64,000 nt of DNA, taken from assembly GCF_019635515.1 (NCBI RefSeq), contig NZ_JAHBZI010000001.1:806001-870000 (forward strand), in the 5' to 3' direction. The number at the start of each line of letters is the position of its first letter. Position 1 is the first letter of the stretch. The notes beneath the pieces were generated by a model that saw nothing but the letters and a program-made list of their open reading frames with translations, had not been told where the DNA came from and did no database searches. The DNA comes from Sphingomonas sp. GTDB taxonomy: Bacteria; Pseudomonadota; Alphaproteobacteria; Sphingomonadales; Sphingomonadaceae. Of this stretch, positions 24,349-43,672 are shown piece after piece. The position numbers and the translations under genes are program-made.

Positions 24349-25647
24349 TCAGCGCTTCTCCCGCGCCAGCCGGCTCATCAGGATCGCGCTGCGCTTCGCC
24401 TGGGTCGAAATGCTCGGCAGATCGAGCCATTCGCCCTCGGCGTGGAGCGTGCCGCCGATCGGGCCCATGCCGGCCAGCGTATCGGCCCAGGCGGCGACGA
24501 AGCTCGAATCGGCGGCGCCGCGCTTGGCGGGCGGGAACTCGGCCATCTCGGGCAGGCCCATGTCGCGGTTGATCGCGTTGACGCGCGCGAGCAAGGCGCG
24601 GTTGCCTTCGGTCGGCGCCATCGGCGGGGTGTTGTCCTGAAAGGTCAGCGTCGCGCTGGTACCTGGCAGATGCTGGGCGACGATCGCCTGCATCTTCTCG
24701 CGCGCCCTCGCATCCTGTTCGGGGCTGAGGCTGCGCAGATCGCCGCGGGCGATCGCCTGGGCGGGGATGACGTTGGTCTTGCCCGATGCCTGGACCTTGA
24801 CGCCATCGGCATCGATGCTCGCCGGAGTGCCGCCGGCTATGACGCCGACGTTGAAGGTCAAATTCTCCTCGCGCAGCTCGCTTTGCCAGTGGTCGAGGAT
24901 GCGGCTGATCTCGTAGATCGCGCCATAGCCGAGATCGGGGCCGAACACGCTGCCGCCATGCCCGGTCTTGCCGGTGGCGGTGAGCGTCCAGTTATTGGCG
25001 CTGCGCCGCGCGACTGTGCCCCATTCCCTGCCGTCCTCCTGCGCGAGATTTTCATATTCGAGCGCGACATCGGCCCATTTGCCGGCCTCGACCAGATCGC
25101 GGCGCGCGAGCGGGATCGGATCGCCGGTCTTCTCCTCGTCGCCGGTCAGCATCACCATGATGTCTGCGCCCTTTAGCGTGCCGGCCTGCTGCATCGCCCG
25201 GAGCGCCGCGACGATCACCGCGATGCCGCCCTTGTCGTCGACCACGCCGGGGCCGACCGCCTTGTCGCCGTCGCGCACGAACTTCTGGAAGGGCGAGCCG
25301 GCTTCGAACACGGTATCGATATGGGCGATGAGCAGCATCCGCTTGCCCTTGCCACTGCCCTTGTGGGTGGCGACGAAATGGCCGGCGCGTTTGGTCTCGG
25401 GCACGTCGATCCACGCGACCTTGAAGCCCAGCGCCTCGAACTCGGGCTGGAGCATCGCGCCCATCGCCCGCACGCCCTCCAGGTTCAGCGTGCCGCTATT
25501 CTGGTTCACCATCCGTTCGAGCAAGGCGATCGTGCGGTCGCTCTCCTTGTCGACCGTGGCGACCATCGCGGTCTCGGCCTTCGACAATTGGGCATGGGCG
25601 GGAAGGGCGGCGGCAAGCGCGGCGGCGGTGAGGAGGATGCGGAACAT
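24349..25647 (-). CDS. Exported M20 family metallopeptidase (glutamate carboxypeptidase type)
   Basis: A 432-aa protein with an N-terminal signal peptide (FRILLTAAALAAALPAHAQ). M20 metal-binding motifs are present: LIAHIDTVFE (first His/Asp), GPGVVDDKGGI (bridging Asp) and LTGDEEKTGDP (catalytic Glu pair), with a dimerisation lid domain around GHGGSVFGPD. Such enzymes hydrolyse peptides or N-acylated amino acids, here in the periplasm. A second M20 gene lies beyond the genomic island at 34.9 kb, so the tRNA-Gly insertion site once lay between two M20 genes. Confidence 0.9.
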   Translation of the reverse strand: MFRILLTAAALAAALPAHAQLSKAETAMVATVDKESDRTIALLERMVNQNSGTLNLEGVRAMGAMLQPEFEALGFKVAWIDVPETKRAGHFVATHKGSGKGKRMLLIAHIDTVFEAGSPFQKFVRDGDKAVGPGVVDDKGGIAVIVAALRAMQQAGTLKGADIMVMLTGDEEKTGDPIPLARRDLVEAGKWADVALEYENLAQEDGREWGTVARRSANNWTLTATGKTGHGGSVFGPDLGYGAIYEISRILDHWQSELREENLTFNVGVIAGGTPASIDADGVKVQASGKTNVIPAQAIARGDLRSLSPEQDARAREKMQAIVAQHLPGTSATLTFQDNTPPMAPTEGNRALLARVNAINRDMGLPEMAEFPPAKRGAADSSFVAAWADTLAGMGPIGGTLHAEGEWLDLPSISTQAKRSAILMSRLAREKR

Positions 25648-25763
25648 GGCCGCGAGGTTAGTGCGCGGATCGCGGCAACGCTACCCATTGACGCGCCTGC
25701 GGGCAGCGTGTCACAGGCGCGTTCTCAAGCGCGGCTTCGGGCGACCGGCCAAAGCCTTGAAAT

Positions 25764-25834
25764 GCGGGTGTAGCTCAATGGTAGAGCAGAAGCTTCCCAA
25801 GCTTACGACGAGGGTTCGATTCCCTTCACCCGCT
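25764..25834 (+). tRNA. tRNA-Gly (CCC anticodon)
   Basis: The cloverleaf is clear. The acceptor GCGGGTG (25764) pairs with CACCCGC (25827-25833). The D arm is GCTC/GAGC, the anticodon loop TTCCCAA has CCC at 25796-25798, and the T arm is GAGGG-TTCGATT-CCCTT. One mismatch sits at the outer anticodon-stem pair. The 3' end reads T then CGC rather than CCA, so the CCA must be added after transcription. The missing CCA is explained by island insertion at this point: the original 3' end with CCA reappears at 34888-34908. Confidence 0.93.
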
Positions 25835-25835
25835 C
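25817..25835 (+). repeat. attL-like direct repeat (tRNA-Gly 3' end)
   Basis: The 19-bp segment CGATTCCCTTCACCCGCTC is identical to 34888-34906. Here it is the T-arm-to-acceptor end of tRNA-Gly. The two copies flank the accessory genes and match the usual attachment-core pattern of tRNA-targeting integrases. Confidence 0.88.
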
Positions 25836-26030
25836 GCCTGGCACTGGCCGCTCAAATCATCATGATATTCTAGTGCGTTAAATATAAGTCCATCGGCACT
25901 GGAAGATGCGTGCCTGCACAAATGGAAGCAAACTTCCTTCAGAATCACTGACAAGGCAGTCACTGGCTTCCGCGAGACTGGCCGCCGACGCCTGAAGCCG
26001 CGATGACGAAGTCGTGCCGAGCCTCCATGG

Positions 26031-26804
26031 TCAGATGCGGATCGTCCATGCGTCCTCCTGCTCCTTTCGCACCATCGCCTCGGCGCTCGCCGGGCGCACG
26101 GTTCGATAGGGTGGGTGTTCGGCCTCGATCACGTCGATGATCGCTTCGATCATTTCCGCCGGATCGTGCTGGTGATCGAGCGCGCGAACCGGCCAGTGGG
26201 CGACCACGCGTTCGCCCTGGTCCCACCACTGATCCATGCTTTCCATGCCGGTGTCGTTGAAGCCGGTCCGGTAGGCGCCGGGATTCACCGTCACCACCTC
26301 GACGCCATAGGGTTTCAGTTCCTCGCGCATCGCAGAGCAGATCCCTTCGACGGCGTGTTTCGATGCCGCGTAGGCGCCGTCGAACGGCACCTTGACCAGC
26401 CCGGCGACCGAGGAGGTCCAGACGATCCGGCCGGCGCCGCGCCTGACCATGGCGCGCGCGAATCCCTGAGCCAGTTCCAGCGCGGCGAAGACGTTCGTCT
26501 CGAAGACCGACCGGAACACCGCCATCGGAATCTCGGCCATCGGCCCCGATTCCATGATCCCGGCATTGTTGAACAGCACGTCGATTTCGATACCGAGCGC
26601 CTTGGTCCGGTCGATCTCGTTCAGGACATCGAGCTTGATGACCTGCATATCGGCGCCATCCGCCTTTGCCGCGTTCCGCAATTCCCAGACCTGCGGCCAT
26701 ATCTGGCACCCCGCGATCACCCGATGCCCCCGTTTCGCGAGGCCGAACGCGACACCGCGGCCAAAGCCGGACGCGGCGCCGGTTATGAGGACGGTCTTGC
26801 TCAT
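26031..26804 (-). CDS. Short-chain dehydrogenase/reductase (SDR)
   Basis: A 257-aa classical SDR. The cofactor motif is TGAASGFGRG, the NNAG motif is LFNNAGI, and the catalytic triad is Ser in WTSSVAG with Tyr/Lys in YAASKHAVEG. The substrate-binding C-terminus is variable, with unusual HQHDPAEMIEAI and EHPPYRTVRP segments. It is an NAD(P)-dependent oxidoreductase of a hydroxyl/carbonyl compound in the cytoplasm. It is the last gene of the island run and follows the LuxR gene by 21 nt, so they are probably co-transcribed. Confidence 0.9.
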   Translation of the reverse strand: MSKTVLITGAASGFGRGVAFGLAKRGHRVIAGCQIWPQVWELRNAAKADGADMQVIKLDVLNEIDRTKALGIEIDVLFNNAGIMESGPMAEIPMAVFRSVFETNVFAALELAQGFARAMVRRGAGRIVWTSSVAGLVKVPFDGAYAASKHAVEGICSAMREELKPYGVEVVTVNPGAYRTGFNDTGMESMDQWWDQGERVVAHWPVRALDHQHDPAEMIEAIIDVIEAEHPPYRTVRPASAEAMVRKEQEDAWTIRI

Positions 26805-26825
26805 CTTGTTTCTCCCGAACCGATG

Positions 26826-27545
26826 CTAGGCGGTAATCTCCCCATTGCGGATCGCGACCCGGACCGCCTGCGCGGTTGTCGAAACGCCCAGGCGTTTGCG
26901 GATGCGCCGCAGATGATTTTCGACCGTGCGCTCGGACAGGCCAAGCGTGGCGGCGATGTCGATCTGCCGCCGCCCGGCGGCGGTCCAGGCGAGAACTTCC
27001 CGCTCGCGCTCCGACAAGGTGCCGAAGCCGTCAGTGGCGGGCGATTCCAGTATTGTGCGCGCCGCGCGAAAGGCCGCCTCCGCGATCAGCCCGAGCGCCA
27101 ATCGGGCTTGCGGCGATGCGTCGATCCGCTCGCCGCCGAGACTCATCGCGCCTTCCAGTCCCATCGGGCCGAAGACGGGGATCTGGAGACCGTGAATCCC
27201 GCGCCCGCGCGGGGCGCGAACGATCCGGTACAGGTCGCCGCCGTTTCCCGCCGTCTTGGTCCAGAAGAACGGCTCGTTTGCTTCGAGGATATGCCGCGTC
27301 ACCGGACAGCGCCGAATATAGGTCTCGGCGTCGACGCTTTGGCCGTCGCCGAACCAGTCGCCCTCGACCCAGTAGATGCTCTGGAGCACCTCGTCCCGAG
27401 CGGCCGATGCCGAGAAGAGCACGAACCGATCGTAGCCGAGCGGCCCGGCGAAGGCGCGGACGGCGCTTTCGATCGCGGCCATATCCTCGGCCCCCTCGAT
27501 GACGAGGACGCTCCGGAAAGCCGAATCCGCCGCGACCGCGCTCAT
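26826..27545 (-). CDS. Orphan LuxR-type regulator with autoinducer-binding domain
   Basis: A 239-aa protein from the ATG at 27545. The N-terminal ~165 residues fit the autoinducer-binding domain, with YWVEGDWFG, EPFFWTK and the glycine-rich GIHGLQIPVFGPMG. The C-terminal HTH is LSEREREVLAWTAAGR, then RTVENHLRRIRKRLGV. In the stretch RRCPVTRH the Asp that usually precedes Pro (Asp70 in LuxR numbering) appears to be Cys, which could change ligand preference. No luxI lies in the window, so it is a LuxR solo. It sits within the island between HchA and SDR genes. Confidence 0.85.
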   Translation of the reverse strand: MSAVAADSAFRSVLVIEGAEDMAAIESAVRAFAGPLGYDRFVLFSASAARDEVLQSIYWVEGDWFGDGQSVDAETYIRRCPVTRHILEANEPFFWTKTAGNGGDLYRIVRAPRGRGIHGLQIPVFGPMGLEGAMSLGGERIDASPQARLALGLIAEAAFRAARTILESPATDGFGTLSEREREVLAWTAAGRRQIDIAATLGLSERTVENHLRRIRKRLGVSTTAQAVRVAIRNGEITA

Positions 27546-27561
27546 CGACCGGCCCGGCCCA

Positions 27562-28413
27562 TCAAACGACGGCGACATCCGCGAGCAACGCCTCGGCGGC
27601 AAGCTTGCCGAGCGCGTTTCCGGCCAGCGGGCTGTCCCCGGTCAGCAGCTTGCGGTCGCGATGCACGGCGCCGGAAATCCCGTCGTTGATGATCTCGAAG
27701 CCCAGTGCCTTCAGCCTCTCGCCGAACTTCCACGTCAGATGGCCGGGCATATAGCCGATGTCCGGCGTCTGGGCGTCGAGCGCATCCGGAAAAGCGCAAA
27801 TCCTGTATCCGCGATAGATGTCGCTGTCCCCGACCGCGAGGAAGGCGGCGGGTCCGTGGCAGAGCGAAATCACGAAACGGTCATTGGCAGCGGCCCATTC
27901 CAGCGCGGCTTTCACATCCTCGCTTTCGGGCAGGCCGATCAAAGCGCCGTGGCCACCGGGGATGAAGATCGCGGCATAGTCGTCAAGGCCGCCTGAGACC
28001 AGGTCCGCCAGCTTGAGCGGTTCTTTGAAATGGGGATGATATTTGTCGAAGAAACCCTGCACTTCCTGATCCTCGGACGGCATCGCCCAGAACTCGAACT
28101 TGACCGGATTGCCCGACACGGTCGCCACGTCGAAGGCGAACCCCGCCCTGTCGAGGTGATACATCGGCAGGAGCGTCTCGACCGGATGATTGCCGGTCGA
28201 GAAGAAGGAACCGTTGTCGGTGAGCAGATAGCGTTCGTCGGCGCCGATCATCAGCACCTTCTTCGCGCCTTGATAGGGAGCCGGATAGTCCGCGCCGCTC
28301 AGGTCGGACTTCGGCGAGGTGAACTGGCTCAGCGAATAGCTTGAGGGAAAATACGCACCCTTCTCCGCCGGATCGGGCTGCGGTTCTTTGTCGTCTTCCA
28401 CCATTCCGGCCAT
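27562..28413 (-). CDS. hchA: DJ-1/PfpI family protein, HchA (Hsp31) type
   Basis: A 283-aa protein from the ATG at 28413 with GGAGG 7 nt upstream. It has the Hsp31 layout: an N-terminal extension ([17 protein letters not shown]), the DJ-1 core with nucleophile Cys in [14 protein letters not shown] (near residue 191) and upstream Glu/His partners in [10 protein letters not shown] and [11 protein letters not shown]. Such proteins act as glyoxalase III/deglycases or chaperones against methylglyoxal and heat. Its place in the island with a hydrolase and SDR suggests a detoxification role. Confidence 0.88.
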
Positions 28414-28706
28414 CGGGGATCCTCCATTCCGTAAAGTCGTTTCAGGATACGGTTCCCGGTCGACCCGACAATGGGGGTTTTCCCTCAATAGCGACAGACT
28501 TGTCGAACCGATCGTGAAGGCTGCGGAAGCTGCGGCGTAACGGCGCGCGCAGTCGGCGTAGCGGCTGATCCGGCCCGAGGCGATGTGTCCGGCAAGGGTG
28601 CTGCGGAATCGTCGACAGCAGATGCTTGCCGAGGAGCGGATAGCCATAGGCCTCGCCGCCCGCGGTTTTCAGAGCTCTTGGCGCACCCAACTCCGCAATC
28701 CGATCC
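28414..28706. other. Intergenic region inside the island
   Basis: 293 bp between the alpha/beta hydrolase stop and the HchA start. Short overlapping ORFs occur, but none has a start, RBS and coherent protein pattern. The last ~30 nt hold the HchA RBS. A promoter for the HchA-LuxR-SDR group is expected here. Confidence 0.5.
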
Positions 28707-29579
28707 TCACGGCACCGTCTCGAGAAAGCGGCGAATGGCATCGCGCGCCTCGGGCTCGCTCAGCGTCGGGGCATGACCGATGCCCGGCACCTCGACCAGC
28801 ATGGCCCCGGGCGCCTTGGCCTTCATCTTCGCGGCGATGGCGGAACTCAGTATGTCCGACGCTTGTCCACGGATGATGAGCGTCGGCCGCGTCCGCGCGA
28901 GACGGCGGAAAAGCAGCCATGCCAGCGGCGATGAGGCCTTGAAGTTGCCCGCGGCGAGCGGCACGGCGATCGCCGGATCGTAATCGAGCACGGGGACGCC
29001 ATCGTCCTGTTCCCGGAATGTCCGATGCGCGAATTTGCGCCAGTCCTCATCGGCGAAGTTCGGAAAGGTGCCTTCGTTGATCCGCCGGATATAGGCCGTC
29101 GCTTCGTCCCAGGTGCGGATGGTGACGGGCTTTCCCGCATATGACTTGATCCGCGCTATGCCTTCGGGCGCCACTTCCGGGCCGACATCGTTCAGCACCG
29201 CCGCCGCGATGCGTCGGCGGTGCCGCGCGGCGAGCAACATGGTGATGATGCCGCCCATCGACGTGCCCACGAACACGGCGCGCGCGATTCCCAGCAGGTC
29301 CATCATGCGCGCGATGTCGCGTGCGTACACGGACGGCACATAGCTGCGCGGATCGGGACCCCGATCCGACCTGCCCCGGCCGCGGACGTCGGGAACAAGC
29401 ACGCGCCGGCCGCCCGCCGCCAGGAACGGCGCCAGCTCCTCGAAGTCGCTGCTGTTGCGGGTCAGCCCGTGAAGGCAGATGACGGGCAAGCGCGCGGGCC
29501 CGCCCGTGCCGCCGTAGTCCCTGGTGAAAAGGTTCAGACCGTCCTGGGACGACCAGAACCTTTCCACGAAACCACTCAT
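28707..29579 (-). CDS. Alpha/beta hydrolase
   Basis: A 290-aa fold-family hydrolase. The nucleophile elbow GTSMGGIITML (Ser near residue 110), oxyanion segment ICLHGLTRNSSDF and late His in VPGIGHAPTLSEPEAR give the expected Ser-Asp-His set. It begins 16 nt after the TonB receptor stop, so the two form a unit. A receptor plus a cytoplasmic ester- or lactone-cleaving hydrolase suggests uptake followed by hydrolysis of one compound class. The substrate is unknown. Confidence 0.88.
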   Translation of the reverse strand: MSGFVERFWSSQDGLNLFTRDYGGTGGPARLPVICLHGLTRNSSDFEELAPFLAAGGRRVLVPDVRGRGRSDRGPDPRSYVPSVYARDIARMMDLLGIARAVFVGTSMGGIITMLLAARHRRRIAAAVLNDVGPEVAPEGIARIKSYAGKPVTIRTWDEATAYIRRINEGTFPNFADEDWRKFAHRTFREQDDGVPVLDYDPAIAVPLAAGNFKASSPLAWLLFRRLARTRPTLIIRGQASDILSSAIAAKMKAKAPGAMLVEVPGIGHAPTLSEPEARDAIRRFLETVP

Positions 29580-29595
29580 CGATTCCGCCGCCCGA

Positions 29596-32019
29596 CTAGA
29601 AGCGCATGCCGGCGGATACGAAGATCTGGCGGGGGTTCCCGTAGAATGCCGTCAGGATGCCTTCCCGTCCCACGGCCGACGACAAGCCAGGTTGCCCGTT
29701 GGGCAGGATGAACTCGCCCGTGAACGGGTTCTGGTTGAAGAAGTTGTACCCCCCGAGGATATAGCGCTCGTCAGTGAGATTCTTGGCATGCACGCCGAGA
29801 GACCAGCGGCCGCCCGGCGCCCGCCACACCAAATTCGCATCCCAAAGTGAGAATGCGCCCTGGTCGAGGCCTGGAATCGGACTTTCGAACTGCTGGCTCT
29901 TGCCACGATAGGAGAGTGTGGTGTTGAAGTTGAGGCGGCCGCTCCCGACCGGCACATCGTAATCGAGTGTCGCGCTCGCGGTCCATTTGGGCGTGTTCTG
30001 GATCGAGCGGTAATCGGACACATCCCTTTGTGCCGCCGGCACGATCGGCGTTCTGTCCGGCCCAAAAGCCACGACGCTGAAGAATTCCTTGAATCTGGCG
30101 TCGAGATAGCCAAGCGACCCTGACAGCGTGAGGCGATCGCCTCCCGCCGCCATGCCCTCGGCGACGCGGAACGCGCTTTCGAGTTCAAGTCCCTTGAAGG
30201 CGGCCTTGCCGGCATTTGAGGTGAGACCGCAGAAGCTCGCGACGCCGCTGACCGTGCACGGGATCGATGCGGGAATCTGGACATCCTTATAGTCGGCATA
30301 GAATCCGGCGATCGACCAGGTGAGGCGCCGATCGAGCGCATTGCCCTTCCAGCCGATTTCGTAGCTGTCGACCGTCTCCGGCTCGAACGCCATATAGTCG
30401 AAGATGCCCGCGGGCGTCTGGACCGGGGCCTGCGATGTCTGGCCGCGGGGATCGAACCCCCCGCCCTTGAAGCCGCGCGAGTAGCTGACGTACAGGTTGT
30501 GATTGGCGTTCGGCTTGAAGGAAAGCGAGGCGCGCGGCGTGAACGCCGTGTCCCGGCGCTTGGCCTGAAAATTGGAAGTGATCGCGACTGCGGTCCCGAC
30601 GCCGAACGGGGCGGCGCCGCCGAAATCGGGCGAGCCGCCCAGGATGTAGGTCCGGCGGACGATGTCTCCCCGGCGCCGATCGTCGGTATAACGGCCCCCG
30701 AGTGACAGGCTGAACCGGTCGCTGAAGTCATAGCTGAAATCAGCGAACAGAGCCCAGGTCTCGCTGGCGATCTTGCTGTCCGTTCCCAGCGTCAGGCCGG
30801 GAAGCGCCAGCAGGTTTCCGGTGGTATATGCCCGAACGTCGAAGGCGGTTCGCGCGTCGGCGTTCAGATAATAGGCGCCGATAAGGCCGTTCAGCGGTCC
30901 GTGTTCGACCACCAGCTGGAGTTCCTGGCTGAACTGGCTGTTCTCATAGAGGCCCGGCACGTCCGCATCGACGGTGGGGAGCGCATCGAAGTCGATCGGC
31001 CCGAAAGAGCTGTCTTTCCGGTACGCCGTGATGGAGCGAAGCGTAAGGTCTGATCCAAGCCCGATCTCCAGGCGGCCGACGATGCCGCCGCCCTTGACCT
31101 TCTGCTTCGGCGTATCAAGTCCGCCCCTCGTGTCGAACACGTTGTTCAGAACCGGGGCCAGCGTAAGCAGGCTGGGAAGGAGCCGGTGTCCGCCGCGCGG
31201 TTTGCTGTCGTCCCACGTATAGTCACCCGACACGCGGAAGAGAAAAGATTCGGAAGGCTGGAATTCCAGCGTTCCCCTGGCCGCGATCATGTCCTTGTTG
31301 TAATTCGCCTCACCGGTCGTGAGGTTCTTACCGAAACCGCCGCGGCTCAACCGGGCGAAGGCCGCACCGACCCTGAGGCCGTCGGCAATTGGAGCCGAAG
31401 CGGTCGCCACCAGATCAATTTGCTCGTAGGAACCGACATTGAAACGGATGCTGGCTTCCGGATCGTCCGACAGCCGCCGGGTGACGTACTTGATCGCACC
31501 GCCGATCGTGTTGCGTCCGTAGAGGGTCCCCTGCGGTCCGCGCAGCACTTCGATCCGCTCCACATCGTAGATGTCGAGCAGCGCTAGCTGGGGGCGGTTG
31601 AGATAGACGTCGTCGATATAGATGCCGACGCCCTGCTCAAAGCCCGCGACCGGATCCTGCTGGCCCACGCCGCGAATGAAGGCGGTCAGGGTGCTGTTGG
31701 TGCCGCGCGAGGTCTCCAGGGTCACGTTCGGCGTCGTTTCGCCGAGATCGGTGATATCGAGAGCGCCCTGGCGCTCAAGCTGCTCGCCCGAAAAGGCCGT
31801 GATCGCGATCGGAACGTTCTGCAATATCTCGTCCCGGCGCCGCGCCGTGACGACGATTTCCGGATCGCCCGCCGTAGCGGACTGATCGGCCGTGCGGTCG
31901 CCTGGAGGTGCGGGCTGTCCCGTCCCTGCGTCCTGGGCCGAGGCCGAGGCAGCGGACAGCAACGCCGCGGCGGCGATGCCGCCGTACAGCCAATGCCTGG
32001 AATGAAGCAGCTTCGTCAT
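29596..32019 (-). CDS. TonB-dependent outer-membrane receptor
   Basis: An 807-aa receptor with an N-terminal signal peptide, then the TonB box region EIVVTARRRDEILQNVPIAI, the plug (IYIDDVYLNRPQLALLDIYD, then VLRGPQGTLYGRNTIGGAI) and a 22-strand barrel that ends in FVSAGMRF, the C-terminal Phe signature. It imports a ligand across the outer membrane with energy from TonB. No siderophore genes are nearby, so carbohydrate, aromatic or other ligands are equally possible. A TetR gene is divergent, with palindromes in the gap. Confidence 0.95.
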   Translation of the reverse strand: MTKLLHSRHWLYGGIAAAALLSAASASAQDAGTGQPAPPGDRTADQSATAGDPEIVVTARRRDEILQNVPIAITAFSGEQLERQGALDITDLGETTPNVTLETSRGTNSTLTAFIRGVGQQDPVAGFEQGVGIYIDDVYLNRPQLALLDIYDVERIEVLRGPQGTLYGRNTIGGAIKYVTRRLSDDPEASIRFNVGSYEQIDLVATASAPIADGLRVGAAFARLSRGGFGKNLTTGEANYNKDMIAARGTLEFQPSESFLFRVSGDYTWDDSKPRGGHRLLPSLLTLAPVLNNVFDTRGGLDTPKQKVKGGGIVGRLEIGLGSDLTLRSITAYRKDSSFGPIDFDALPTVDADVPGLYENSQFSQELQLVVEHGPLNGLIGAYYLNADARTAFDVRAYTTGNLLALPGLTLGTDSKIASETWALFADFSYDFSDRFSLSLGGRYTDDRRRGDIVRRTYILGGSPDFGGAAPFGVGTAVAITSNFQAKRRDTAFTPRASLSFKPNANHNLYVSYSRGFKGGGFDPRGQTSQAPVQTPAGIFDYMAFEPETVDSYEIGWKGNALDRRLTWSIAGFYADYKDVQIPASIPCTVSGVASFCGLTSNAGKAAFKGLELESAFRVAEGMAAGGDRLTLSGSLGYLDARFKEFFSVVAFGPDRTPIVPAAQRDVSDYRSIQNTPKWTASATLDYDVPVGSGRLNFNTTLSYRGKSQQFESPIPGLDQGAFSLWDANLVWRAPGGRWSLGVHAKNLTDERYILGGYNFFNQNPFTGEFILPNGQPGLSSAVGREGILTAFYGNPRQIFVSAGMRF

Positions 32020-32051
32020 GATCCCCTCCCATGTGTGCCCGGTGCCTTATT

Positions 32052-32123
32052 GGTACCTTGGCGTATGTAATATTGATCACCCGATTCTAATAGACTGTCA
32101 AGCATGTTCATACGGTACCGTAT
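32052..32123. promoter_or_regulatory. Divergent promoter with GGTACC palindromes
   Basis: The perfect 14-bp palindrome ATACGGTACCGTAT is at 32110-32123, and a second GGTACC core lies at 32052-32057, with centres 62 bp apart (about six helical turns). Both sit between the TonB receptor and TetR starts. They are good candidates for binding by the adjacent TetR regulator. Confidence 0.55.
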
Positions 32124-32164
32124 TCATATTTGACCGGCGCTTCCTTTGCATCCATGTACGGCGG

Positions 32165-32767
32165 ATGGCATCGAAAGCACGCAAGCCGCGAGTCAGCCGG
32201 ATCGAGGAGGATGACTGGATCGAGTCAGCCTTCGACATGCTCGCGAATGGCGGTGTCGCGGCGGTGAGGGTCGAACCGCTGGCCGACAGGCTGGGGGTCA
32301 CCAAGGGTGCGTTCTATGCCCGTTATCCCACGCGCGACGCGCTGCTTGCGGCGATGCTCGAATACTGGCGGCGCGTGTCCACCGTGGATGTGCTCACCGC
32401 GTTCGCCGAGATCAATGAGCCACCGGTCGAGCGGCTGCGGCGCATCCTCGACCTGCCGTTCCGGCGCGCGGACGTCCGCAATCGCGCGCGCATGGAGATG
32501 GCCATCAGGATCTGGGCGCACCATGATGAGCGCGCGGCAAAGACGATGGCGGAAATCGATGCGTACCGAATCCGCTATTTCGAGTCGGTGCTGCGCGCGA
32601 ACGGCTTTGCGGCTCCGGAAGCGGAAGCCCGCGCTTTCCTGATCTATGCCTATGTAGTAGCCGACGGCTCCCTGCCGGGTGCGCGATCGCCCGCGCTACG
32701 CTCGCGCGTTCGCCAGTTCCTCTCAACGGAGCTGGACAACGAGAACGAGGCTCAGCAGACGGATTAG
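32165..32767 (+). CDS. TetR family transcriptional regulator
   Basis: A 200-aa protein from the ATG at 32165. The N-terminal HTH reads WIESAFDMLANGGVAAVRVE, then LGVTKGAFYARYPTRDALL, the standard TetR signature. The C-terminal ligand-binding half is helical (RARMEMAIRIWAHHDERAAK). It is divergent from the TonB receptor gene and probably represses that gene cluster. The ligand is unknown and may be the imported compound. Confidence 0.92.
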   Translation: MASKARKPRVSRIEEDDWIESAFDMLANGGVAAVRVEPLADRLGVTKGAFYARYPTRDALLAAMLEYWRRVSTVDVLTAFAEINEPPVERLRRILDLPFRRADVRNRARMEMAIRIWAHHDERAAKTMAEIDAYRIRYFESVLRANGFAAPEAEARAFLIYAYVVADGSLPGARSPALRSRVRQFLSTELDNENEAQQTD

Positions 32768-32919
32768 CGGTCGAGGCCAATCTCGTCAGCATGGGCGGCG
32801 AGGAATTCGATCGCATCTTTATGCTGGAGGCATTCTGGAGGCGTCCTCCAACCTCTGCATGCACAAGGCGCGTTGAAACCTAAACAGAATTAATTCAGCA
32901 GGTTAGGTAGAGCAGGGCG

Positions 32920-33474
32920 TCACGGCGAATTGGCAGGAAGCTTGATCATCGTCTGCTGCGCCATGGTCCCGTTCGCGATGATGATCTCCCGTCCGTCATC
33001 GGTGCGAAGGATGGTGAACCCGAGCGTGATGTCTTCGACGACGCCGACATCGTATTGATCCTTGTTCGGGGCGATGACCTGCAACCGGTCGCCGCGGCGG
33101 AACGGCTTGTAGAGAACGAGGCTGATACCCGCGATCAGATTGCCGAGCGTCGTCTGCGCGGCGAATCCGACAATCACCGACATCAGGCCCACCCCCGCGA
33201 GCAAGGCGGTGCTGAGGCGCGTCAGCGCCGGGACGAGATGGGTGTAGAACGCCGCGAGCAACAGCCAGATCGTCAGGATCGCAAGGTGGCTGAGGAAGGA
33301 AATCGTAATCTGGTCGATCCGTTCGGATCGATCGTGCGCAATCGCAGTCCTGAACAGGCGACGCGTCAGCCAGGAAAGGAGGAGACCCGTCGCAAACAGC
33401 AGGGCGGCAACGATGCTCGCACCCAGCCAGGTCCTGGTATCGAGATAGTGCAATGGCGCGGCAATCTGTTCCAT
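32920..33474 (-). CDS. Short MscS-like membrane protein
   Basis: A 184-aa protein from the ATG at 33474. It has two helices, then a pore-type helix with GVGLMSVIVGFAAQTTLGNL and the KPFRRGDRLQV junction, then a beta-domain (VGVVEDITLGFTILRTDDGR). It ends where the C-terminal alpha/beta domain of MscS would begin, so this is either a compact member or a truncated gene. It may form an osmosensitive channel. No neighbouring gene is coupled to it. Confidence 0.75.
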   Translation of the reverse strand: MEQIAAPLHYLDTRTWLGASIVAALLFATGLLLSWLTRRLFRTAIAHDRSERIDQITISFLSHLAILTIWLLLAAFYTHLVPALTRLSTALLAGVGLMSVIVGFAAQTTLGNLIAGISLVLYKPFRRGDRLQVIAPNKDQYDVGVVEDITLGFTILRTDDGREIIIANGTMAQQTMIKLPANSP

Positions 33475-33730
33475 CAGCGCTGGCCTATGGCTTGACGTTG
33501 TTGACGCGAAGCCAGGCATCGCGGTTCGCATATACGCCAGCGGACCTCGGCGTCGGGGCATTCGCACTGCCCGGAATGAAACGGAGAATCCATCTGCATT
33601 CGAAAATACCTACCATTTCGGGGAAATCGGCGCGACCATCGCATTCGAGGCTTCCGGCGCATCGGTTGATTGGGCTGTTCGTCGCAACTGCGGGGCGATA
33701 CGATCGCGTCAAAATCGTGAGGGGTTTGTG

Positions 33731-33841
33731 ATGTCGCAGGGCGATTCAGGCTACAAGCTGTACAACCACCGGGTGGAGGCGATCGCCCGCAACGGCATGC
33801 CCGCGGCCAGGTCGATCGCCGTCCGAGCGATCGCGGCATGA
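33731..33841 (+). CDS. Small ORF translationally coupled to the DyP peroxidase
   Basis: A 36-aa ORF from the ATG at 33731, with AGGGG 6 nt upstream. It reads MSQGDSGYKLYNHRVEAIAR, then NGMPAARSIAVRAIAA. The TGA lies inside the ATG of the DyP gene (ATGA at 33838). The DyP start itself has no clear RBS, so this ORF probably drives its translation. I do not recognise the sequence. Confidence 0.45.
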   Translation: MSQGDSGYKLYNHRVEAIARNGMPAARSIAVRAIAA

Positions 33842-34827
33842 GCATGGACGAAGCCGCGGGCGCGACGGTCGGCCAGACCTGGGAAAGGGTACCGATCGAC
33901 GCGCAGAGCGTCGAGGCGCCGCTGTCGCAGGCGGCGGTGTTCCTGGTCGTGACGGTCGGCGCTGACGACCAGGCGCTGGCGACGGTCCGTGAAACCCTGG
34001 CCGGCATCGACGACCTCATAAAGACGGTCGGCTTTCGCGATCTGGCCGGCCGGCTGTCCTGCGTGGTCGGGATAGGTCACGACCTGTGGCGACGGCTGGA
34101 CACAGGAGCTTTGCCGGCCGAGCTGCATCCGTTCAGGCCCATACAGGGTGCAAAGCACGTGGCGCCCGCCACGCCGGGCGACATCCTGTTCCACATCCGG
34201 GCCGAACGGGTCGATCTGTGCTTCGAGTTCGAACGGCTGCTGCTGGCGGCGCTGGGCGACACGATCCGCGTGGTCGATGCCGTGTCGGGCTTCCGCTATT
34301 TCGACGCGCGCGATCTGCTCGGCTTTGTCGATGGCACCGCCAATCCGGCCGGCAGCGACATTCCGGACGCCGCGCTGGTGGGGCGGGAAGATCCGGACTT
34401 CGCCGGCGGCAGCTATGTCGTCGTCCAGAAATATCTCCACGACCTGACCGCGTGGAACGCGACCGATCCCGGTCAGCAGCAGGCGATCATCGGCCGGACC
34501 AAGATCGACAATGTCGAGCTGGCCGACGCTGGCGCGCAGGAACAGAAATCGCACAAGACGCTGGCGACGATCGTCGACGAGCAGGGCGTCGAGCACGACA
34601 TCCTGCGCGATAACATGCCGTTCGGCAGCCCGGCGCGCGGCGAGTTCGGCACCTATTTCATCGGCTACTCACGGCGCCTGTGGGTGATCGAGAAGATGCT
34701 GGAGCGGATGTTCATCGGGGATCCGCCGGGCAGCCACGACCGGTTGCTCGACTTTTCGACCGCCAAGACGGGAACGACCTTCTTCGCGCCCTCGCGGCGC
34801 GTCCTCACTGGCCTGTGCGGTGACTAG
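33838..34827 (+). CDS. DyP-type (dye-decolourising) heme peroxidase
   Basis: A 329-aa peroxidase. The distal GxxDG motif is GFVDGTANP (near residue 160), with the proximal heme His probably in GVEHDILRDNMPFG and the late GTYFIGYSRRLWVIEKML. Such enzymes oxidise phenolic dyes and other aromatics with peroxide and are often encapsulated, but no encapsulin gene is near. The length is typical of the bacterial B/D types. It sits at the island edge, and the 3' tRNA fragment lies 61 nt beyond its stop. Confidence 0.92.
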   Translation: MSMDEAAGATVGQTWERVPIDAQSVEAPLSQAAVFLVVTVGADDQALATVRETLAGIDDLIKTVGFRDLAGRLSCVVGIGHDLWRRLDTGALPAELHPFRPIQGAKHVAPATPGDILFHIRAERVDLCFEFERLLLAALGDTIRVVDAVSGFRYFDARDLLGFVDGTANPAGSDIPDAALVGREDPDFAGGSYVVVQKYLHDLTAWNATDPGQQQAIIGRTKIDNVELADAGAQEQKSHKTLATIVDEQGVEHDILRDNMPFGSPARGEFGTYFIGYSRRLWVIEKMLERMFIGDPPGSHDRLLDFSTAKTGTTFFAPSRRVLTGLCGD

Positions 34828-34887
34828 CAAGTTTTAAATGTGACAGATTGTGCTACACGCCCGCCCGCGGGCAGGGATGATAGCGAC

Positions 34888-34908
34888 CGATTCCCTTCAC
34901 CCGCTCCA
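34888..34908 (+). repeat. attR-like tRNA-Gly 3' fragment with CCA
   Basis: CGATTCCCTTCACCCGCTC followed by CA gives the full tRNA-Gly 3' end with its genomic CCA, without the rest of the tRNA. It repeats 25817-25835 exactly over 19 bp. It is interpreted as the original tRNA 3' end displaced by island insertion. It lies 24 nt upstream of the M20 peptidase start. Confidence 0.9.
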
Positions 34909-34931
34909 ATTTCCTGAACGGAGCCTCCTTC

Positions 34932-36317
34932 ATGCGCCACGCTGCCGCGGCTTTCCTCGCATTGGCGCTCACCGCCGCTCCCGCCGCGCAGGCGCAGAGC
35001 GACAGGCAGGCCGAGGGCCAGGCGCTCGATATGCTCAAGCGCGGCATCGCCTTCCGCACGGTGGCGGGCGAAGGCAACCAGACCTTCGATTATGCCAGCT
35101 ATCTGAAGGGGCAGCTGGTCGCGGGCGGATTTGCGGCCGACGATGTTCGCATCGAGAAGTCCGACGACACCGCCTTCATGGTCGTCCGCTATCGCGGCAC
35201 CGATAGCGCCAGGAAGCCTATCTACATTTCCGGGCATATGGACGTGGTCGAGGCCAAACCGGCCGACTGGACCCGCGATCCGTTCACCCCGGTGATTGAG
35301 AACGGCTATATCTGGGGCCGTGGCGCCAGCGACATGAAGTATGATCTGTCGACGATGGTCGCGACGCTGCTCCAGCTCAAGCGCGAAGGCTTCAAGCCGG
35401 GCCGCGATATCCTCCTGCTCGCATCGGGCGACGAGGAGACGTCGATGAAGACCACGCAGAAGATGGCGGCGGAATTCCACGATGCCGAATTGCTGCTCAA
35501 TATCGACGGCGGCGGTGGTGAACTGGACGAGACCGGCAAGGCGGTGATGTTCGGCATCCAGGGCGCCGAGAAGACCTATGCCGATTACGAGCTGACCTTC
35601 ACCAACGCCGGCGGCCATTCGAGCGCGCCGACCCGATCGAACGCGATCTATTCGCTGGCGCGGGCGCTGGACAAGATCGCCGCCTATCAGTTCCCGGCCG
35701 AGATCAACGAGATCACCCGCGCCAGCTTCGAAGCCAGCCTGACCAGTGCCGACAAGCCGATGGCCGAGGCGACGCGCCGCTTCCTGGCCAACAAGGACGA
35801 TCCGCAGGCGCTGGCCTATCTGCGCTCCTATCCCGGCCTGACCGGCCAGACCGGCACCACCTGCGTGGCGACCACCGTCCAGGCCGGGCATGCGACCAAC
35901 GCGCTGCCGCAGCGGGCGACCGCCAACATCAATTGCCGCATCTTCCCGGGCACGAGCACCAAGGCGGTGATGGAAACCCTGACCAAAGTGGTCGGCGATC
36001 CCGAGCTCAAGATCGTCGAGCTCGACAGCGGCACCGTGGCGAGCGACGCGTCGCCGCTCAAGCCGGAGCTCATGAAGCTGATCGGCAAGCTGATCCATGC
36101 CCGCTTCCCTGGCGTGCCGATCGTGCCGAGCATGTCCGCGGGGGCGAGCGACAGCATGTGGTTCCGCGCGCGGGGCGTGCCGAGCTATGGAGTCAGCCCG
36201 ATCTTCATGAAGTCGTCGGACGGGTTCGCGCATGGTCTGAACGAGCGCACGCCGCTCAGCGAAATCGGGCCTTCCATCACCTATTACCGCGCGCTTCTCA
36301 GAGAGCTTGCGAAGTAG
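34932..36317 (+). CDS. Exported M20/M25/M40 family metallopeptidase
   Basis: A 461-aa protein with a signal peptide (FLALALTAAPAAQAQ). The metal-binding motifs are YISGHMDVVEAK (first His/Asp), RGASDMKYDLS (bridging Asp) and ASGDEETSM (Glu pair); a late His lies in DGFAHGLNERTPL. Such enzymes hydrolyse dipeptides or acyl amino acids; the exported form acts in the periplasm. Its stop is 3 nt before the PYROXD2-like gene, so they are probably one transcript. It is the downstream partner of the M20 gene at 24.3-25.6 kb across the island. Confidence 0.9.
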   Translation: MRHAAAAFLALALTAAPAAQAQSDRQAEGQALDMLKRGIAFRTVAGEGNQTFDYASYLKGQLVAGGFAADDVRIEKSDDTAFMVVRYRGTDSARKPIYISGHMDVVEAKPADWTRDPFTPVIENGYIWGRGASDMKYDLSTMVATLLQLKREGFKPGRDILLLASGDEETSMKTTQKMAAEFHDAELLLNIDGGGGELDETGKAVMFGIQGAEKTYADYELTFTNAGGHSSAPTRSNAIYSLARALDKIAAYQFPAEINEITRASFEASLTSADKPMAEATRRFLANKDDPQALAYLRSYPGLTGQTGTTCVATTVQAGHATNALPQRATANINCRIFPGTSTKAVMETLTKVVGDPELKIVELDSGTVASDASPLKPELMKLIGKLIHARFPGVPIVPSMSAGASDSMWFRARGVPSYGVSPIFMKSSDGFAHGLNERTPLSEIGPSITYYRALLRELAK

Positions 36318-36320
36318 GTC

Positions 36321-37907
36321 GTGACCAGGCGCTACGACGCGCTGATCATCGGCGGCGGGCATAACGGGCTCGTCTGCGCTTTCTATCTGGCGCGCGCGGG
36401 CATGAACGTGCGGGTGCTGGAGCGGCGGCATGTCGTTGGCGGCGCGGCGGTGACCGAGGAATTCGCGCCCGGCTTCCGCAATTCGACGGCGAGCTACACG
36501 GTCAGCCTGCTCCGGCCGAAGGTGATCGCTGACATGAAGCTGCATCAGCGCGGCTGGCGCGTGGTGGAGCGGCAGATCTCGAACTTCCTGCCGCATGACG
36601 GCGGCTATCTGAAGCTGGGCGGCGGAGCCGAGCGCACGCGCGCCGAGTTCGCACGCTTTTCGAAGAAGGATGCCGAAGCCTTTCCGCACTATGAGGACGC
36701 GCTGGAACGCGTCGCGGAAGTGCTGCGCGACATGGCGCTCAGGACGCCGCCCAATGCCGGGGGGGGCATCCGCGCCTTGCTGGCGGCAGCGGCGCAGGGG
36801 CGCAAGCTGGCGGGGATGCCGATCGAGGCGCAGCGCGATACGATGGACCTGTTCGTCAAATCGGCGCGCGACTTCCTCGATAGCTGGTTCGAGAATGCGT
36901 ACGTCAAGGCCGCGTTCGGCTTCGACGCGGTGGTCGGCAATTATGCCAGCCCCGATACGCCGGGCAGCGCCTATGTTTTGCTCCACCATGTCTTCGGCGA
37001 AGTGAACGGCAAGAAGGGTGCATGGGGGCATTCGATCGGCGGGATGGGCGCGATCACGCAATTGATGGCCGAGGCGTGCGTCGAGGCGGGCGTCGCGATC
37101 AGTCTGGAGGCGCCGGTCTCTAAGCTGCTGGTGGACGGTAGCAAGGTCGCGGGGGTGCGGCTGGAGAGCGGCGAGGAGATCGCGGCGAAGGTGGTCGCGG
37201 CAAATGTCGGGCCGGCTTTGCTGTATCGGCAATTGGTCGATCGCGCTGACATGGCGTCCGACTTCGCGCGGCGGATCGACAACTACAAAGCCGGTTCAGG
37301 CACGTTCCGGATGAACCTGGCGCTATCGGAGCTTCCCGACTTCACGGTGCTGCCGGGCAAGGGCGAGCATCACACCGCCGGCATCATGATCTGTCCGACG
37401 CTCGACTATATGGATCGGGCCTATACCAGCGCGAAGGCCAGGGGCATGTCCGACGCGCCGATCGTCGAGATGACGATTCCCTCAACGATGGACGACAGCC
37501 TGGCGCCGCCGGGGCAGCATGTCGCGGCATTGTTCTGCCAGCAATTCGCGCCCGATCACGATTGGGATACGCACCGCGAGGCCGCGGCCGACCGGATCAT
37601 CGATACGGTCACGCAGCACGCGCCCAATTTCAAGGCGTCGGTGATCGCGCGCCAGATCCATTCGCCGCTCGATCTCGAGCGCAAGTTCGGGCTGACCGGC
37701 GGGGACATCATGCACGGGCACATGTCGCTCGATCAGCTTTGGGCGGCGCGGCCGGTGCTGGGGCATGGCGATTATCGCGGGCCGATCGCCGGGCTCTATA
37801 TGTGCGGCGCGGGTACGCACCCGGGCGGCGGCGTTACCGGCGCGCCGGGGCACAATGCGGCGCGGGAGATTTTGCGGGATCGCAGCCTGTTCGCGAAAAT
37901 CTTCTGA
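36321..37907 (+). CDS. FAD-dependent oxidoreductase, PYROXD2/phytoene desaturase-like
   Basis: A 528-aa flavoprotein with a GTG start at 36321. The N-terminal dinucleotide fold is ALIIGGGHNGLVCAFYLA, then NVRVLERRHVVGGAAVTEEF. The C-terminal FAD contact is GLYMCGAGTHPGGGVTGAPG. The pattern and length match the PYROXD2 group of amine oxidase/carotenoid desaturase-like proteins, which bind FAD but have no settled reaction. It follows the M20 gene by 3 nt. An inverted repeat follows the stop. Confidence 0.85.
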   Translation: MTRRYDALIIGGGHNGLVCAFYLARAGMNVRVLERRHVVGGAAVTEEFAPGFRNSTASYTVSLLRPKVIADMKLHQRGWRVVERQISNFLPHDGGYLKLGGGAERTRAEFARFSKKDAEAFPHYEDALERVAEVLRDMALRTPPNAGGGIRALLAAAAQGRKLAGMPIEAQRDTMDLFVKSARDFLDSWFENAYVKAAFGFDAVVGNYASPDTPGSAYVLLHHVFGEVNGKKGAWGHSIGGMGAITQLMAEACVEAGVAISLEAPVSKLLVDGSKVAGVRLESGEEIAAKVVAANVGPALLYRQLVDRADMASDFARRIDNYKAGSGTFRMNLALSELPDFTVLPGKGEHHTAGIMICPTLDYMDRAYTSAKARGMSDAPIVEMTIPSTMDDSLAPPGQHVAALFCQQFAPDHDWDTHREAAADRIIDTVTQHAPNFKASVIARQIHSPLDLERKFGLTGGDIMHGHMSLDQLWAARPVLGHGDYRGPIAGLYMCGAGTHPGGGVTGAPGHNAAREILRDRSLFAKIF

Positions 37908-37990
37908 CTGTCTTCCGGACTTGTTCCGGGATCCCGCTTCTTCGGTGGGCGAAGGCAGCGGGATCCCGGCTCAAGGCCGGGGTGACAGAA
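37908..37990. repeat. Intergenic inverted repeat
   Basis: The left arm (TGTCTTCCGGACTTGTTCCG, then GGATCCCGCT) is answered by AGCGGGATCCCGGCTCAAGG, then CCGGGGTGACAG. It lies between two convergent genes and can act as a transcript barrier. It is another sphingomonad-type palindromic element. Confidence 0.7.
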
Positions 37991-37993
37991 GAC

Positions 37994-39283
37994 TCAGGCG
38001 GTAACCTCTTCCGCTTTTTCGGCTGAGCCGCGCAGCAGGTAGAGCGGCACCGCCGTCGCCATCAGGCCGAGGCTGAGCCCGATCGCCTCATAGCCAGCGC
38101 CCCAGATCGCCCACAAAGCGAAGAGCAGGCCGATTGCCGCAGCGGGTCGCGCCACGCCGATGACCAGCGCGGAGATGCACGCACCCGCATAGAACCAGAG
38201 CGTCGCCGCCGTCGTCACACGCAGCATGAAGTCGTAGATCGCCGACGTATCCTTCGAGACGTTGCTGAGGATCAGCACGCTCGCCAGCGCGGTCGAGGCG
38301 ATCAGCGCACCGACCGGCACGTCGCGACTGCTGGTGCGGCCGATCGCGGCGGGGATCACCCCGGCGCGGGCCATGCCGAGCGGGGCTTCGCCCTGGAGCA
38401 GCACCCAGCCGTTAAGCGCGCCGATCGCCGCCACCGCCGCGAAGCCGGCAACCGCGAGGCCGGCCCAGCGGCCCCAGAAGGTTTCGACGAACAAGGCGAC
38501 CGGAGCATTGACGCCCGCGACCGCCTCTTGCGGCATCGCGAAGATGATGCCCGAGCAGGCGATCAGATAGAGCAGGCCGGTGACACCGACGCCGGTCAGC
38601 GTCGCGCGGGTAACGGTGCGGCCGGGATCGCGGACGCGCTCGGCGCAGAGCCCCGCGCATTCGAAGCCGACCATCGCGAAAAACGCCATCGTCACGGCGG
38701 GGGCGAGCTGCTTGACGTCAAAGGCGGCATGGGGGTGTGCGTCGAGCGCGAGACCGCCGCCGATGCCGAGCTGGGCGAGAAGCAGGATGATCGCGGCCAT
38801 CGGCACCAGCTTGATCAGCGTCGTCACGACCTGAAATCGCCCCGCCGTCGGCGCGCCGCGCAGGTTGAGCAGGGTGATCAGCCACAGCAGGCCGACCGCG
38901 CCGAGCACCAAGGTGAAGGACGAGGAAGCGAGCGGCGGCCAGAATACGCCGAGATAGCGCACCGCCGTCAGCGCGATGAAGGCGTTGGCCGACCAGATGC
39001 CGACCCACATGCTCCAGCCGATCAGCACGCCGGGGAGCGGCCCCAGCGCTCTGGCGCAGATCGCCAGCGTGCCGGTCGCCTCGGGCATCGCCCGCGACAG
39101 CCCGGCGATCACCCAGGCGATCACCATCGCCCCGGCGATCGCCGCGACCCAGGCGGCGACGCTGGTGAAACCGAACGGGGCGAGCTGCGCCGGCAAGGCG
39201 AAGAAGCCCGAGCCGATCATGTTGCCGATGACCAAGGCGGTAGCGGTCCAGAAGCCGAAGGGCCGTCGATTGGTGTCGCTCAT
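37994..39283 (-). CDS. APC family amino-acid permease
   Basis: A 429-aa protein with about 12 transmembrane helices. The N-terminal segment TATALVIGNMIGSGFFALP contains the family unwound helix with the GSG site, and a second FAMVGFECAGLCAERVRDPG segment matches the sixth helix. It is an inner-membrane amino-acid or polyamine transporter of the basic/arginine-ornithine antiport kind, the substrate unresolved. It stands alone, with inverted repeats on both sides. Confidence 0.9.
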   Translation of the reverse strand: MSDTNRRPFGFWTATALVIGNMIGSGFFALPAQLAPFGFTSVAAWVAAIAGAMVIAWVIAGLSRAMPEATGTLAICARALGPLPGVLIGWSMWVGIWSANAFIALTAVRYLGVFWPPLASSSFTLVLGAVGLLWLITLLNLRGAPTAGRFQVVTTLIKLVPMAAIILLLAQLGIGGGLALDAHPHAAFDVKQLAPAVTMAFFAMVGFECAGLCAERVRDPGRTVTRATLTGVGVTGLLYLIACSGIIFAMPQEAVAGVNAPVALFVETFWGRWAGLAVAGFAAVAAIGALNGWVLLQGEAPLGMARAGVIPAAIGRTSSRDVPVGALIASTALASVLILSNVSKDTSAIYDFMLRVTTAATLWFYAGACISALVIGVARPAAAIGLLFALWAIWGAGYEAIGLSLGLMATAVPLYLLRGSAEKAEEVTA

Positions 39284-39305
39284 CGTTCCCCCCGAAACTC
39301 AGTTG

Positions 39306-39381
39306 TGCTCCTGCGGAAGCAGGAGCCTAGAGCCGATATCGTTGTCGTTCGTAGCCCTGGGCTCCCGCTGCTGCAGGAGCA
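39306..39381. repeat. Intergenic inverted repeat, second copy of the CTCCTGC type
   Basis: The arms TGCTCCTGCGGAAGCAGGAG (39306-39325) and GGGCTCCCGCTGCTGCAGGA (39359-39378), with their CCTAG and CCCTG flanks, match the element at 13996-14070. It lies between convergent or same-strand genes with no coding content. Confidence 0.7.
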
Positions 39382-39388
39382 CATACAC

Positions 39389-40144
39389 TCAGATCCCGCC
39401 GTCGACCGCTTCGAGCCCCTTGCTGGTCAGTCCGGCGATCAGCGCCTCGGCACAGGCGTCGAGCGTAGCCCGATCGGTGGCGCGCACCACGAAATTCGCG
39501 CCGGTGCGGCCGTCGCGGAAAAAAGGGTAGCTGCCGATCGCCACGCCTTCATGCGCACGCTCGGTTGTCCCGAGGAAATCGGCGATCTCGCTCTCGGCGA
39601 CCCAGCTTCCCACAGTGCGCGACAACACCGGGCGGCCACCCTCCAGCGTGCCGGTCAGCGCGTCGAGCATCCCGGCGGCGATGTGCGGCACGCCGGCGAG
39701 GATGAAGATGTTGCCGTGGCGGATGCCGGGCGCGCCGGAGACGCGGTTGACGATCAGCTCGGCGCCCTCTGGCACGCGCGCCATGCGCAGGCGGGCATCG
39801 GTGATCCCGCCGCGGGTTTCGTAATAGCGCTCCAGCACCGCGCGGGCGGCCGGGTGGATCGTCACGCCGACGCCGAGCGCCGCTGCGATCGCATCGACGG
39901 TGATGTCGTCATGCGTCGGGCCGATGCCGCCGGTGGTGAAGAGATAATCGTTGCGCGCGCGCAGGGTGTTGACCGCCTCGACGATCGCTTCCTGGACATC
40001 GGGCACGACGCGGACCTCGGCGAGGCGGATGCCCTGGACGTTGAGCCAGGTGGCGAGCTGGGCGATGTTCCTGTCCTGGGTGCGGCCCGAGAGGATCTCG
40101 TCGCCGATCACCACCAGTGCCGCAGTCCAGATGCGCTCGCTCAT
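39389..40144 (-). CDS. CinA-like molybdopterin-binding domain protein
   Basis: A 251-aa protein from the ATG at 40144; the longer in-frame extension to 40279 runs opposite the next gene. The MoCF_biosynth fold is shown by VVIGDEILSGRTQDRN and YLFTTGGIGPTHDDITVDA, and the C-terminal half contains EGVAIGSYPFFRDGRTGANF. It corresponds to the CinA N-terminal (COG1058) part without the amidase domain. Members of this type act as ADP-ribose or FAD pyrophosphatases or competence proteins; the role here is unproven. Confidence 0.88.
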   Translation of the reverse strand: MSERIWTAALVVIGDEILSGRTQDRNIAQLATWLNVQGIRLAEVRVVPDVQEAIVEAVNTLRARNDYLFTTGGIGPTHDDITVDAIAAALGVGVTIHPAARAVLERYYETRGGITDARLRMARVPEGAELIVNRVSGAPGIRHGNIFILAGVPHIAAGMLDALTGTLEGGRPVLSRTVGSWVAESEIADFLGTTERAHEGVAIGSYPFFRDGRTGANFVVRATDRATLDACAEALIAGLTSKGLEAVDGGI

Positions 40145-40190
40145 GCCTCCCGCATAGACCGAAGCTTCGAGCCCGACTAGCTTGACCGTC

Positions 40191-41114: not shown

Positions 41115-41138
41115 GCATTTGCGCCTATATCGCGCGCC

Positions 41139-41963: not shown

Positions 41964-41968
41964 GCGGA

Positions 41969-42787: not shown

Positions 42788-42801
42788 CTCGGGATCCGAA
42801 G

Positions 42802-43209
42802 CTAGAGTGGGCGCGGGACGGGCGCGCGTCGCAGCACATCGGCGACTTCGCCGATCGCCGCGATGAATGGGGTCACCGCCTCGGGCTTGACCGCCTGTTC
42901 GGCGAGACGTCGCGTCTGCCGGAGATCGCCATCGGCGGCGGCGTGAAACAGCACGAGCAGCGCCGCTTCGTCATCGCGGACATGCGCGCAATTCTCGCGG
43001 CAGAAAACGCGTGGTGCGGCACCCTCCACATTGAGCAGGAACATCGCCACGTTGAAATTGCCGAGCAGGTCTGCCAGGCGCCAGCGCTCGAACGACGGCC
43101 CGAGCGCCGCGCAGGGGCAGCGTTGTCCGGCCATCGCCGCCACCCAGCTCCGCATCGACCAGAGCAGGATTTGCTCGGCCGGTGCCAGGCTGGTCACCGG
43201 ACGATCCAT
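42802..43209 (-). CDS. Hypothetical protein with paired cysteines
   Basis: A 135-aa protein from the ATG at 43209 (MDRPVTSLAPAEQ); a GTG at 43221 could extend it. It has CPCAALG near residue 32 and FCRENCAH near residue 72, giving a possible metal- or iron-sulfur-binding set, and an Ala/Val-rich helical C-terminus. It is 14 nt upstream of fpr on the same strand, so a link to redox metabolism is possible. I do not recognise the family. Confidence 0.65.
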   Translation of the reverse strand: MDRPVTSLAPAEQILLWSMRSWVAAMAGQRCPCAALGPSFERWRLADLLGNFNVAMFLLNVEGAAPRVFCRENCAHVRDDEAALLVLFHAAADGDLRQTRRLAEQAVKPEAVTPFIAAIGEVADVLRRAPVPRPL

Positions 43210-43591: not shown

Positions 43592-43672
43592 TTTGGGGAT
43601 TTTTGTTCCCTGCCGGGTGCCGAGCAATCGGGCAGCGATGCGGTCGCTGCTTATTTGTTGGGCAGTTGTTGA

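Follow-up and report, generated by a model that had tools for sequence, protein, structure and literature searches.

An integrase-less genomic island in the tRNA-Gly(CCC) gene of a Sphingomonas species, with a probable origin as a serine-integrase element

We analysed a 64,000-nucleotide stretch of a Sphingomonas sp. genome (contig NZ_JAHBZI010000001.1, positions 806,001 to 870,000), hereafter the window, in which an earlier sequence-only reading had described a genomic island without an integrase in a tRNA-Gly(CCC) gene. We identify the block as a tRNA island in a decayed state, a mobile element of a known kind, and make two corrections to the earlier account: the segment containing the island is inverted relative to related genomes, and the element was probably brought in by a serine integrase, a possibility that the earlier account did not consider. 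That the island arose by site-specific insertion in the 3' end of tRNA-Gly(CCC) we regard as nearly certain, because relatives have an empty site at which an intact tRNA gene ending in CCA runs directly into the M20 peptidase gene that now lies to the right of the island.

Insertion at the 3' end of tRNA-Gly(CCC)

ARAGORN finds a single tRNA in the window, tRNA-Gly(CCC). Its tail, CGATTCCCTTCACCCGCT, together with one further C, recurs exactly at 34888-34906, and the two copies form the borders of the island:

25764-25834, plus strand: tRNA-Gly(CCC); its last 18 nt lie within the left repeat, and its encoded CCA is lost
25817-25835, plus strand: attL core repeat CGATTCCCTTCACCCGCTC, comprising tRNA positions 54-71 and one C
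34888-34906, plus strand: attR core repeat, with the CCA of the original tRNA after it (34906-34908)

The exact 19-bp recurrence, with CCA at the right copy only, had been noticed from the sequence and holds. A search of the window for CGATTCCCTTCACCCGCTC with up to 3 mismatches returns two matches, both exact, where 0.03 are expected (dinucleotide-shuffle control), and the same two copies are the only ones in the 3.54-Mb genome when up to 1 mismatch is allowed. The left copy is followed by CGCC, the right one by CCA. In all 28 relatives with a readable tRNA 3' flank, CCA comes after tRNA-Gly(CCC), leaving this genome as the exception. The tRNA gene, which now ends at the discriminator base, may nonetheless still be functional; post-transcriptional addition of CCA is presumably available, as the genome encodes a CCA-adding-type enzyme of the PolyA_pol family.

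Empty sites are present in at least seven relatives (G073, G067, G104, G057, G118, G004 and G088), with the tRNA ending in CCA and the right M20 gene following after ~25-100 bp. Joining the two borders of the island reproduces this empty site exactly. The island therefore shows two features by which tRNA-borne islands are recognised, copies of the tRNA 3' end in direct repeat at its two borders and an empty site with an intact tRNA in relatives. These sites, together with a cargo segment resembling a Shinella plasmid (see below), support the earlier reading of the block as a genomic island in the tRNA gene.

The sequence-only reading also placed M20 peptidase genes on both sides of the island. 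Both are present, but they belong to different subfamilies, and the left one adjoins the tRNA through an inversion:

24349-25647, minus strand: left flank, M20 peptidase of the PRK06133 type, placed beside the tRNA by the inversion
34932-36317, plus strand: right flank, M20 peptidase of the PRK09133 type, directly after the tRNA-CCA in relatives with an empty site
25654-45640, unstranded: stretch with the tRNA and the island, inverted in this lineage when compared with G073 and G088

Nucleotide alignment to G073 and G088 sets the limits of the inversion between 25653 and 25764 on one side and at ~45.64 kb on the other. Relatives carry the left M20 gene downstream of the tRNA instead of upstream, on the far side of the segment that comes after the right M20 gene. 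Because the arrangement of G073 from tRNA to left M20 gene recurs wherever both were seen in other relatives, the arrangement in the window is derived and the inversion specific to its lineage. The inversion is thus what gives the island an M20 gene on either side, and of the empty site that had been predicted (M20, intact tRNA, M20) the intact tRNA-CCA and right M20 gene are found, but not the left M20 gene upstream.

Recombinases in the genome and at the same tRNA in relatives

The absence of an integrase from the interval, likewise remarked on earlier, stood up to a recombinase search: we found no tyrosine recombinase (PF00589, Phage_integrase), no large serine recombinase (LSR; PF07508) and no LSR remnant between the repeats. 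Because all three are missing, the block can be no more than a decayed or non-autonomous island, lacking the integrase that a tRNA-borne island would carry within it. Outside the island, the genome has two PF07508 LSRs, at C1:1405680 and C1:2033425, which are 26-30% identical to the LSRs that use tRNA-Gly genes in relatives and have no tRNA beside them; no recombinase of the family using tRNA-Gly(CCC) in relatives was found in this genome. There are also 7 above-threshold Phage_integrase matches, some of them presumably of the XerC/D type.

We scanned 295 congeners for the 19-mer and read the resulting loci individually. tRNA-Gly(CCC) is a hotspot in the genus, occupied by two classes of element whose enzyme is known. 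The first class uses tyrosine integrases and has repeats of 42-47 bp that reach the anticodon loop (from about position 27-30); its members are in G135 (22.8 kb), G071 (16.5 kb) and G250, G180 and G309 (5.2-6.8 kb). The elements in the last three genomes (L134, L135 and L239) carry a relaxase-like gene, a Rep-like gene and a divergent tyrosine integrase of 417 aa, with a repeat of 42 bp or slightly longer. Pfam PF00589 misses this divergent integrase, and its absence from other loci was re-checked by tblastn.

The second class uses LSRs with Resolvase, Recombinase and zinc-ribbon domains. An LSR gene faces tRNA-Gly(CCC) directly downstream in 11 genomes (G084, G052, G021, G122, G008, G293, G199, G017, G055, G089 and G045; loci L240-L248, L255 and L261), ending ~30-45 bp from the tRNA. 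The distal att site of ten LSR elements shares only tRNA positions 57-71 or 54-71, plus CCA; repeats in this class are 15-25 bp, and element lengths range from 1.7 kb (G045, essentially an LSR alone) to 95 kb (G089). Decay of the recombinase is seen at the same tRNA, with a frameshifted LSR in G201, a truncated one in G172 and a C-terminal stub in G245. G170 (L140/L141/L149/L150) has a 63-kb island with a short repeat and matches to both LSR-like arms, in which we found neither an LSR nor another recognisable integrase.

The element in G045 (L282, first 1.75 kb of the reverse complement) is apparently minimal, with a lone LSR between att copies 1.7 kb apart, and as such is the mirror image of the cargo-only island in the window. 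Related LSRs are found at tRNA-Gly(GCC) in three genomes (L251, L252 and L254) and at tRNA-Met in two (L268 and L269).

Attachment arms and the history of the island

The repeat in the window, tRNA positions 54-71, fits the short kind found with LSR elements (54/57-71) and not the 42-47 bp of the tyrosine-integrase class. It is accompanied at the right end, but not at the tRNA side, by a sequence of the kind that flanks the core in LSR elements:

34851-34887, plus strand: putative attP left arm next to attR, matching the arm profile of LSR elements in tRNA-Gly(CCC)
25835-26030, unstranded: tRNA-side junction, lacking, presumably through deletion, the CCA, attP right arm and LSR gene that LSR-type elements have at this place

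The left-arm profile was built from the 37 nt outside the distal core of ten LSR elements, leaving out the three core-adjacent bases. Only 16 of 1.1 million positions in a first pool score as high as the arm in the window or higher, as do 22 of 1.3 million (~2e-5) in a second pool without LSR loci. With the closest arm, that of G089, removed from the profile, the number rises to 355 of 1.3 million (3e-4), and with that of G021 removed it is 147. The score was reached by 4/200,000 shuffles of the window's own arm, whose best single match is to G089 (22/37; null 1e-5). Neither the arm of an LSR-less island in G253, described below, nor a tyrosine-integrase control matched the LSR left-arm profile.

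These observations make it fairly probable that an LSR was the original enzyme and that the integrase end was deleted later, but several points weigh against this attribution. It draws on one 37-nt arm and the length of the repeat, and our confidence in it is moderate. The right-arm pattern is clear across fourteen LSR loci, yet the tRNA-side sequence of the island matches the right-arm profile only at chance level, in both gapped and ungapped comparisons. The attP-like sequence of the island has no dyad at position 63.5, a feature shared by most LSR elements. A search of the interval for an LSR remnant with the family HMM at full sensitivity (filters off) gave a best E of 0.08, which is not credible. 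Lastly, G253 (L136-L138) has a 36-kb island whose short repeat has the same 54-71 boundary but which contains no PF00589 match or other recognisable integrase and matches neither LSR arm, so that a short repeat alone is not diagnostic.

We propose that an integrative element recombined site-specifically into the 3' end of tRNA-Gly(CCC), most likely by means of a large serine integrase of the clade found at this tRNA in many congeners. Integration would have copied the tRNA tail, such that on the left the tRNA was made whole by the copy from the element, while the original tail and its CCA were displaced to the right end. A later deletion at the tRNA-side end, starting at the last base of the tRNA, would then have taken the CCA supplied by the element, along with the attP right arm and the LSR gene; we suggest a single event because one deletion would account for all three losses. 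No plasmid matches the 225-bp junction on the tRNA side. The outcome would be a cargo-only, non-excisable island. Set beside the LSR elements of the genus, it resembles a relic rather than an intact member. Judging from its sequence, the island is unlikely to be mobile today, because its tRNA-side site is incomplete and the two LSRs of the genome are distant from the tRNA-Gly clade and have no tRNA beside them. The earlier suggestion that the element is either fossilised or mobilised in trans can accordingly be narrowed: the former is favoured, the latter less so, with the tRNA-side arm gone and no matching LSR in the genome.

Integration at tRNA 3' ends is usually the work of tyrosine integrases (PMC3218068; PMC4701971), and elements with such enzymes occupy this very tRNA in the five congeners named above. 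A T-loop-cutting tyrosine integrase might therefore have inserted the island and its gene then have been lost, with the rest of the history unchanged. The G253 island, with its 54-71 boundary, lack of a PF00589 integrase and lack of an LSR arm, is consistent with such an enzyme. However, the tyrosine-integrase elements on the 3' side of this tRNA all share 42-47 bp with it and not 18, and the right-end arm of the island resembles those of LSR elements. We consider this explanation rather unlikely.

It is also conceivable that the island never had an integrase of its own and was a non-autonomous passenger, mobilised in trans by the recombinase of another element. Both core copies are intact and identical, and the genome offers 7 Phage_integrase matches and two LSRs as potential sources of activity. 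Nevertheless, the divergence of these LSRs from the tRNA-Gly clade, and the absence of a tRNA beside them, argue against it, as does the missing tRNA-side arm, which leaves the substrate site incomplete; moreover, the HchA cassettes examined among the 295 genomes lie in other contexts, and no case of this island in a different location came to light in a relative. We therefore regard a passenger origin as improbable. More improbable still is that the block is ancestral and the repeat a by-product of the inversion or a chance duplication. An inversion breakpoint does lie within ~110 bp of the tRNA, but inversions give inverted rather than direct duplications, the two breakpoints have no repeat above 8 bp in common, and the recurrence is far beyond chance. 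The seven relatives without the island, whose empty site its borders restore exactly, refute an ancestral block unless all of those sites arose by precise deletion.

Taking the LSR origin together with the other elements at this tRNA, we lean towards the view that the genus harbours an LSR clade specialised on tRNA-Gly 3' ends, and perhaps on tRNA-Met, which builds cargo islands and strands them when the integrase end is deleted, and that the island in the window is one such relic.

Island content, known systems and significance

As the sequence-only reading described, the ~9.1 kb between the repeats carry accessory genes. The cargo between 25836 and 34887 (~9.05 kb) has 8 open reading frames (ORFs), and no intergenic gap above ~270 bp:

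26031-26804, minus strand: SDR oxidoreductase (NF006776), in the HchA cassette
26826-27602, minus strand: LuxR-type autoinducer-binding regulator of the PA1136 / reg_near_HchA family (TIGR03541)
27562-28647, minus strand: HchA glyoxalase III / protein deglycase (NF003168); the listed ORF start is probably ~80 codons too early
28707-29579, minus strand: alpha/beta hydrolase
29596-32019, minus strand: TonB-dependent receptor
32018-32767, plus strand: TetR-family regulator
32920-33567, minus strand: MscS-like protein (short)
33838-34827, plus strand: Dyp-type peroxidase (DyP)

The cargo is sporadic and foreign, as is typical of tRNA-borne islands. The SDR, LuxR and HchA genes match a plasmid from Shinella sp. 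PSBB067, which belongs to a different order, with 81% nucleotide identity over 2.3 kb and the same gene arrangement, although here the cassette lies inside a chromosomal tRNA island of a sphingomonad. An HchA gene is present in 6/295 congeners, where the cassettes examined have other contexts. For the TonB receptor there are sphingomonad proteins of 55-64% identity, several of which adjoin a related hydrolase, and the island has no DNA match in a phage collection.

The island agrees with tRNA-borne islands of the Islander/TIGER type in its insertion at a tRNA 3' end, the direct repeat of the tRNA tail, its foreign cargo and its empty site, but differs in having no integrase and no CCA at the tRNA-side copy, and in a left context altered by inversion. 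With the LSR elements in tRNA-Gly(CCC) (G084, G089, G017 and others) it shares the target tRNA, a short repeat ending with the tRNA and the right-end arm; those elements keep an LSR by the tRNA, the CCA and both arms, whereas the island has none of these left at its tRNA-side end. Integration into tRNA genes by serine recombinases has been described as rare, the examples being Ralstonia phage phiRSM1 at tRNA-Ser and Mycobacterium AICEs at tRNA-Leu (PMC3218068). These are likened to the island by description rather than by sequence, and differ from it in tRNA species and host; phiRSM1, in addition, is a filamentous phage.

As cargo the island is ordinary, and the LSR clade is the most interesting by-product of the analysis. 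Despite the described rarity, it uses one tRNA gene repeatedly; if our interpretation is true, the niche at the tRNA-Gly 3' end, generally ascribed almost entirely to tyrosine integrases, is occupied by an LSR clade as well. The integrase-less island becomes part of a testable decay series at one tRNA, running from complete LSR elements through frameshifted or truncated LSRs to none, and LSR/att pairs are at hand for integration at tRNA-Gly in sphingomonads. We found no paper on large serine recombinases with tRNA-Gly in a literature search that left most subscription journals outside its reach, and nothing relevant on Sphingomonas islands in tRNA-Gly; the clade may already be known, for example in the TIGER/Islander tables cited in PMC12884075.

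Two further arrangements were seen at the same tRNA. In G011 (L035:12384-12809), four tandem copies of the tRNA 3' end, in units of ~87-90 bp, come after an intact tRNA-Gly(CCC), making five in all. Elements on the 5' side of the tRNA are found in G014 (C3:125771-158111) and G005 (C31:231869-255861; L038-L042), where a tyrosine integrase adjoins the intact tRNA and a second copy of its first 40 nt stands 24-32 kb away.

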